Under the pieces are notes generated by a model. That model saw only the letters and a list, made by a program, of their open reading frames with translations, did no database searches and had not been told where the DNA came from. A stretch of 5,827 nucleotides of DNA from Deltaproteobacteria bacterium (GTDB taxonomy: Bacteria > JAUYMQ01). The translations under genes were made by a program, and so were the position numbers. How positions within the stretch are numbered: the first letter of the stretch is position 1; every line of letters begins with the position of its first letter. The DNA lies in the NCBI GenBank assembly GCA_030698575.1, contig JAUYMQ010000177.1, positions 1 to 5,827 on the forward strand, in the 5' to 3' direction. Below, in pieces: positions 4,126-5,356 of the stretch.

Positions 4126-4155
4126 GGAAGGGAGAATAGGGGAGGGGTGTGACAT

Positions 4156-4169
4156 GGGGCAGGCGTGAC
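4156..4169 (+). repeat. Degenerate copy of the GGGGTCAGGCGTGAC repeat
   Basis: GGGGCAGGCGTGAC matches the core of the left arm of the 4502-4601 element (GGGGTCAGGCGTGAC) except for one missing T, in the same orientation. It lies directly upstream of an alternative ATG (4155) for the minus-strand nuclease-like gene and on the 5' side of the DinB remnant. A chance 14-base match with one gap to a nearby element seems unlikely, but it could be a short coincidence in GC-rich DNA. Confidence 0.45.
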
Positions 4170-4250
4170 CTCGGGGGGGAGGGCGTCCGACCAACCCACC
4201 GCGCTTGCCCCGCCACGGCGCGCTCGAACCGGTCCGTGATACCATTCGGT

Positions 4251-4520
4251 ATCCAGGACGACCGGATTTCGATGGATGGCACGATCGAGCGCTGGGCGGC
4301 GCGGATAACGGATGCGACGCTCGCGGGCATCCTCGAATACATGAGCATCGTCAATCCCGCGCCGCGGCGCTACGACTACTGGCTCGCGGTGACGCACTTC
4401 TTCAATCACCACACACACCATCGCGGCCAGCTCACAACCTTGCTCTCGCAGTGTGGCAAAGACTACGGTGTGACCGATCTGATCTCGTTGCCCGGAGTTC
4501 AGAACCGGGGTCAGGCGTGA
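4251..4520 (+). pseudogene. DinB-family (YfiT-like) protein remnant, N-terminal half missing
   Basis: DinB-like sequence starts around IQDDRI at 4251. The strongest part is THFFNHHTHHRGQLTTLLSQ followed by DYGVTDLISLPG, which is the last helix and tail of DinB four-helix proteins. Those proteins are usually about 150-170 residues and bind a metal with three His, one in the N-terminal half and two in the H-x3-H region. Here only about 80 residues remain, so the first two helices and the first His are absent. I found no matching N-terminal half in the other + frames of 4126-4260. The frame is open from a GTG at 4149, and ATG 4272 could start a short product, but no convincing ribosome site is present. 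The last residues (NRGQA) and the stop at 4518-4520 come from the palindromic element, so the 3' end has also been altered. A short expressed protein cannot be excluded. Confidence 0.7.
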
Positions 4521-4601
4521 CTTTCGTGACTTGTTGGCCTTCGGGGAGCGGGCGTGGTGGTTAAATAAAATAAGTCAATACGTCACGCCTGACCCCGGTT
4601 C
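4502..4601. mobile_element. 100-bp palindromic REP/MITE-like element
   Basis: GAACCGGGGTCAGGCGTGAC (4502-4521) is the perfect 20-bp reverse complement of 4582-4601. After a short unpaired stretch the pairing resumes with TGACTT (4527-4532) against AAGTCA (4572-4577), so imperfect arms run about 33 bases each. The interior is partly GC-rich and partly very AT-rich (4561-4580 has only two G/C), which is unlike the surrounding DNA. It encodes nothing. Such GGGGTCAGG-type ends recall non-autonomous repeats mobilised by REP-associated (IS200-like) tyrosine transposases, but no transposase is in the window and this link is from memory. No convincing target duplication is seen. It overlaps the DinB stop codon and ends 29 bp before the phytochelatin synthase-like gene. 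Confidence 0.7.
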
Positions 4602-4630
4602 GCCCGAAAATTGGCTGCGAGGGATACGCC

Positions 4631-5356
4631 ATGAAACGAACACTGAGAGTCGCCAGCATCGGCTTCGCAATTCTGCTGCTGGTGGCCGCCGCGGGCGTCT
4701 GGCACATGGCCTTCCGCACTCCGCCGGTCGATCTTCTGCCGCTTCCCGAAGATCTCGTTGCCATCGAGACAGCCCCTGGCCAGCAGCTACTGGCTGAAAG
4801 CCGCTTCACCGCTGATCACGCAAGTCTTGCCGGGAGCTTCGTATCGCAATCGCGCCGCGGTTTCTGCGGCGTTGCCACCTCCGTTGCCGTTCTGAACGCG
4901 CTCCGCCGCCCCGAACCGCCAATTACCCAGTCGACCTTCTTCACCGATGCCGCGCGGGAGGTGCGCGGCCCGCTCCAGGTGAGCCTTGGCGGCATGACCC
5001 TGGGCCAGCTCGGCGATCTTCTCCGCGCGCATGGACTGGACGTCACCGTCTACTACGCATCGGAGACGGGCATCCTCTCCTTTCGATCCGTCGCGCGAGA
5101 GAACCTGACGACCAGCGGAGATTACCTGCTGGTGAACTATCAGCGCGCGGAGCTCGGGCAAGGCGAGACGGGGCATATCTCGCCCGTCGCGGCTTACCAC
5201 GCCGCAACCGACCGCTTTCTCATCCTCGATGCCGCCGCCTACAAGTATCCCCCGGTCTGGGTGGGCGCCGAAGCGCTCTGGCGCGCGATGAACACGATCG
5301 ACCCCTCGTCCAGTCGAAGCCGCGGATTCGTCGTCGTTCGCGAAGGAATCTCGTGA
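4631..5356 (+). CDS. Bacterial phytochelatin synthase homologue, membrane-anchored (papain-like C83 peptidase)
   Basis: This 241-residue protein starts with a basic MKRTLR and a hydrophobic segment (about 9-23), a signal anchor or uncleaved signal that would place the catalytic domain in the periplasm. The rest matches the N-terminal catalytic domain of phytochelatin synthases: Gln73 six residues before Cys79 in QSRRGFCGVATSVAVLNAL (oxyanion Gln and nucleophile), His182 in GHISPVAAYH and Asp200 in FLILDAAAYKYPPVWV. The Gln-Cys and His-Asp spacings (6 and 18) equal those of the plant enzyme. The eukaryotic Cys-rich C-terminal domain is absent, as in bacterial homologues such as the Nostoc one. 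Such proteins cleave glycine from glutathione to give gamma-glutamylcysteine, some with weak phytochelatin synthesis; the role may be thiol turnover or metal handling. Start 4631 has GAGGGA (4619-4624) seven bases... that is, six bases upstream. The 100-bp repeat lies just 5', so the promoter region may have been changed by it. Confidence 0.88.
   Translation: MKRTLRVASIGFAILLLVAAAGVWHMAFRTPPVDLLPLPEDLVAIETAPGQQLLAESRFTADHASLAGSFVSQSRRGFCGVATSVAVLNALRRPEPPITQSTFFTDAAREVRGPLQVSLGGMTLGQLGDLLRAHGLDVTVYYASETGILSFRSVARENLTTSGDYLLVNYQRAELGQGETGHISPVAAYHAATDRFLILDAAAYKYPPVWVGAEALWRAMNTIDPSSSRSRGFVVVREGIS

Follow-up and report, generated by a model that had tools for sequence, protein, structure and literature searches.

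The palindrome that precedes a phytochelatin-synthase-like gene in the window, a 5,827-nt stretch that makes up the entire contig C14 in an assembly of 653 contigs totalling 4.13 Mb, is a further example of TIRYT elements, a known but little-studied class of bacterial mobile repeat. We consider it very probable that the element is a non-autonomous dimeric derivative, miniature and REPIN-like, of the terminal inverted repeats of a TIRYT family of transposase subclass 2.1, with its partner encoded on contig C244 of the same genome.

A palindrome built from two family arms

The palindrome has inverted arms at 4,502–4,521 and 4,582–4,601 that are exact reverse complements of 20 bp each with 60 nt between them; for a window of this size and composition, the chance expectation for perfect 20-bp inverted repeats with a loop of at most 200 is about 9 × 10−6. 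The perfect left arm (GAACCGGGGTCAGGCGTGAC, plus strand) contains the family core from GGGG at 4,507, and the right arm (minus strand) contains the core to CCCC at 4,596. The full arms are longer, about 35 nt on the left (4,503–4,537, plus strand) and 32 nt on the right (4,569–4,600, minus strand), and match the arm consensus with alignment scores of 53 and 52, respectively, where nothing in 60 kb of shuffled sequence reached 26; the left arm includes two TGACTT-type units and a one-base insertion. TGACTT at 4,527–4,532 pairs exactly with AAGTCA at 4,572–4,577, offset by one base; each arm carries an 8-bp unit twice, and this block is its second occurrence. The perfect ends and the inner block had both been recognized in the first-pass annotation and are borne out here; the AT-rich core that it described is limited to 4,560–4,581 (18% GC), the sole strongly AT-rich part of an interior that as a whole has 47% GC, where the flanks have 60–63% and the window 67%.

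The mobile unit is likely to be the 90 bp from GGGG to CCCC (4,507–4,596), by analogy with two other genomes in which dimers are sharply bounded, leaving an interior at 4,538–4,568 that is found in this copy alone; elsewhere in the genome, significant E-values were obtained for the arms only. The outer 5 bp (GAACC and GGTTC) fall outside the family core and are missing on at least one side from the genome's other pairs, so the perfect arms alone are no proof of recency. Elsewhere in the window, TGGGGCAGGCGTGAC at 4,155–4,169 is a possible decayed single arm.

Arms are dispersed through the genome as pairs and singles

Pattern and BLAST searches of the 4.13-Mb genome located the arm consensus, AACCGGGGTCAGGCKTGACTTATTGACTTRTTGG, at some 20 sites. 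These comprise five inverted pairs, one of them the window's own, together with about 13 single arms, both ends of the C244 element and, on contig C392, a short perfect palindrome. A 25-mer arm pattern searched on both strands gave 18 matches in the genome versus none for a reversed control, and none in 58 other genomes, all related at the domain level only. The first-pass annotation had proposed a mobile repeat dependent on a transposase encoded at another locus, to be given up for a local regulatory structure if the palindrome proved single-copy and was conserved at this position in all relatives; the arm count excludes a single copy. Measured from GGGG to CCCC, the pairs span 90 bp on C14, 132 on C25, 128 on C614, 79 on C559 and 111 on C480. 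Matches to the whole element elsewhere in the genome fall in the arms and never in the interior, and the dispersed arms adjoin unrelated genes.

Single arms outnumber pairs, and the five pairs have mutually unrelated interiors, so that movement as a single unit is no more than presumed in this genome; both features would suit two single arms that inserted independently, facing opposite ways and 60 bp apart, instead of one dimer. We regard such a coincidence as unlikely, given that five outward-facing pairs within about 135 bp (79–132 bp) compare with about 0.004 expected, by our own estimate, for some 22 randomly placed arms, and that dimers with conserved interiors exist in other genomes of the family. 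In a search for an empty site, none of the 58 other genomes was related more closely than at the domain level and no phytochelatin synthase was found at E ≤ 1 × 10−20.

The same ends bound a Y1 transposase gene

Three Y1_Tnp genes are present in the genome, on contigs C244, C110 and C176. The C244 gene is a 314-aa Y1 (HUH) transposase open reading frame at 260–1,204 (Y1_Tnp E = 4.8 × 10−10) bounded by inverted copies of the window arm, a diverged left arm (GGGGCAGGCATGAC, 159–187) and, inverted relative to it, an intact right arm (1,190–1,222), in a unit of 1.06 kb. The first-pass annotation had recommended a search for a tyrosine transposase gene of the IS200/REP type with the same ends; the C244 gene is one, and together with the roughly 20 arm places it upholds the proposal of a repeat mobilized from elsewhere. 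The left end is a one-base-shorter arm variant, GGGGCAGGC, of the same type as that at 4,155–4,169 in the window; because this arm has diverged, the C244 copy may be ageing. The protein carries a C-terminal DnaA-type helix-turn-helix (HTH; Bac_DnaA_C E = 6.9 × 10−10 at 225–289), and its sole solved-structure match is the DnaA chain 3pvp, in the same HTH region. Across 24 aligned transposase sequences, H60 and H62 (HUH) and Y119 are invariant, and Bac_DnaA_C was matched in 19 members. To judge from these sequence features, the C244 transposase is the probable autonomous partner that moves the window element.

A miniature of a DDE-type insertion sequence (MITE) would likewise have inverted ends and a small size. 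It is scarcely credible here: the gene that these ends enclose encodes a Y1 transposase, no DDE transposase gene with such ends was found among the arm copies, and no target-site duplication, as a direct repeat adjoining 4,502–4,601 or 4,507–4,596, was detected.

For a TIRYT dimer mobilized by the C244 transposase, we infer the steps from knowledge of the family. Once the DNA is single-stranded, the transposase would recognize the arm through its conserved end, GGGGTCAGGC, and the doubled 8-bp unit; the active tyrosine would cut at the GGGG/CCCC borders; and the hairpin-forming strand would move to a new site, generating no target-site duplication, with the strand being re-joined. The copies, their matching ends, the intact HUH and tyrosine motifs and the same architecture in other genomes are seen directly, and recognition, cleavage and mobility would on this analogy be provided by the C244 protein.

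The C110 gene (locus L046, 922–1,872) lies between arms at 908–941 and 2,009–2,042. Its product has a sigma70_r4-like HTH instead of the DnaA type, and its ends are different (CTTAAATAATGGGGTCAGACCCCTTTATTTAAG); the end sequence of this family, GGGGTCAGACCCC, occurs at 26 genome sites in all. As judged from gene and repeats, C110 is a second family of the same TIRYT kind with its own dispersed repeats, which adds a genome in which two TIRYT families sit side by side. On C176, a short Y1 frame of 136 aa (locus L045, about 1,501–1,842) lies amid several imperfect inverted repeats of 30–53 nt, which are unrelated to the window arm.

Abundant dimers in Chlamydiae and Desulfobacula genomes

REPIN-like TIRYT dimers proved abundant in two further genomes. 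A Chlamydiae assembly (G061, loci L182–L201) contains about 40 near-identical dimers, mostly of 77 and 104 bp, and a Desulfobacula assembly (G060, loci L202–L217) contains about 20 of the same design, of 82–115 bp, with one TTGCG arm and one TTGTG arm. Interiors are common within size classes in both genomes, and the GGGG/CCCC borders are sharp despite differing flanks; these sequence comparisons make it likely that the dimers move as a unit there. In nine congeners the DNA immediately following the orthologous gene lacks one Desulfobacula copy, L213, although the intergenic sequence is too diverged to fix its border.

Most Chlamydiae dimers are themselves enclosed by additional palindromic sequence, for example GCATT|AATGC, and the L213 copy sits midway in an 18-bp palindrome, CCTATGTTA|TAACATAGG; together with GAACC|GGTTC in the window, these are suggestive of a palindromic insertion target, although most Desulfobacula copies do not have such flanks. 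Several of the Desulfobacula dimers lie within a larger composite repeat. A search for the empty target of the Chlamydiae copies with GCATT|AATGC flanks gave no match, and one for the empty composite site in Desulfobacula gave a single match, to an unrelated sequence.

A doubled 8-bp unit in a possibly bipartite arm

We surveyed 80 loci encoding relatives of the transposase, about 30 of which have GGGGTCAGGC-type arms beside the transposase gene; in about 15, the transposase frame takes its stop codon from TGACCCC, the right arm's outer end (R distance 4). Arm positions 1–10 are almost invariant. At positions 11–28, the left and right arms of the same element match in 12.8 of the 18, compared with 7.9 (s.d. 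0.4) for different elements. Within this stretch, from position 12 onwards, an 8-bp unit occurs twice in succession: agreement at lag 8 is 4.7 of 8 versus 3.4 (s.d. 0.18) when the second unit is drawn from another element, about 7 s.d. above these cross-element shuffles, none of 2,000 of which reached 4.7. Among lags 5–12 only lag 8 stands out, with lag 9 weakly so. The doubled unit thus varies between elements and agrees within one arm, and it suggests a concrete candidate recognition site.

We tentatively propose, as a possibility somewhat short of even, that the TIRYT arm is bipartite, with the invariant GGGGTCAGGC end joined to an element-specific tandem 8-bp unit that would be read as an address code by the DnaA-derived HTH; if true, this would answer the question, left open by Quentin 2018, of the role of the DnaA_C-type domain. 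The tandem repeat itself has statistical support, but the link to the HTH does not: in partial Mantel tests, arm-tail distance correlates about equally with the HTH (0.16, P = 0.0025) and the catalytic half (0.20, P = 0.017), with no preference for coevolution specific to the HTH.

Effects on neighbouring genes

Between a minus-strand PD-(D/E)XK nuclease gene and the phytochelatin-synthase-like gene lies a 5′-truncated frame of the DinB family (4,149–4,520, plus strand), a remnant because only the C-terminal part of PF05163 is present (positions 116–156 of 165). Its stop codon, TGA at 4,518–4,520, is provided by the left arm, giving a tail that ends in QNRGQA. The same RGQA-stop tail, encoded inside an arm, also ends genes on C349, C614, C326 and C480 in an ad hoc gene call, and it is a shared C-terminal tail in at least five reading frames (L003, L006, L007, L018 and the window's DinB remnant); the arm supplies an adjoining gene's stop codon in one frame. 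Such repeats reshape protein ends through the stop codons they supply. When the flanks of 4,507–4,596 are joined, the DinB frame reaches a TGA overlapping the ATG of the phytochelatin-synthase-like gene, which is compatible with, and not proof of, the two having once been an older overlapping pair.

The phytochelatin-synthase-like gene (4,631–5,356, plus strand; PF05023 E = 1.5 × 10−53) is directly downstream and outside the element, its ATG 29 nt beyond the end of the palindrome. This proximity, and the folding of the 112-nt strand, which exceeds that of its own dinucleotide shuffles (DNA z = −5.6; RNA z = −6.4, −59.8 kcal/mol), would be expected of a local RNA structure regulating that gene, whether an attenuator, a leader hairpin or the terminator of the upstream gene. 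We hold such a structure to be very unlikely as an account of the palindrome, whose arms are dispersed genome-wide beside unrelated genes; an Rfam scan gave no match, nor did a scan of 4,250–4,700 for intrinsic terminators and sigma-70 promoters. A putative role in phytochelatin-synthase expression is possible as a secondary effect of the mobile element.

Comparison with known systems

A literature search on GGGGTCAGGC, judged by titles, returned nothing apparently relevant, and the doubled 8-bp arm unit and the arm-supplied stop codons (RGQA-stop) may not have been reported before. Like the REPINs moved by RAYTs (PMC3116915), the window element consists of two inverted short repeats, forms a long hairpin and is non-autonomous and Y1-dependent; unlike them, it has no GTAG tag, occupies about 20 places instead of hundreds and belongs with another transposase subclass. 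No GTAG was found at the foot of the palindrome, where the flanks read GAACC and GGTTC and the arms begin GGGG, so it falls outside the definition of GTAG REPs and REPINs. With IS200/IS605 it shares HUH/Y1 transposase chemistry, but those elements lack terminal inverted repeats and carry their hairpins in subterminal positions, whereas the ends of the window family are terminal inverted repeats, which places it outside that definition too.

TIRYTs, or 'TIRtrons', are described in passages of Di Nocera 2013 (PMC3733652) as combining a RAYT-like Y1 transposase with GGGGWSAS-bearing terminal inverted repeats, copies of which are also scattered through the genome singly and in pairs. The consensus given there fits GGGGTCAG, found in nearly all arms, and the window family likewise has a Y1/HUH gene between inverted GGGGWSAS repeats and dispersed singles and dimers; it differs from the cases in those passages in host lineage and exact arm sequence, and the passages concerned do not mention a doubled 8-bp unit. 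TnpAREP subclass 2.1, which Quentin 2018 (PMC6006769) ties to TIRYTs, combines a Y1 domain with a C-terminal DnaA_C-type HTH and has no GTAG REP by the gene; the C244 transposase has this HTH and shares all three features. Quentin 2018 reported the surroundings of subclass 2.1 genes to be devoid of REP-like sequences, whereas here the transposase's own ends recur as scattered dimers and single arms.
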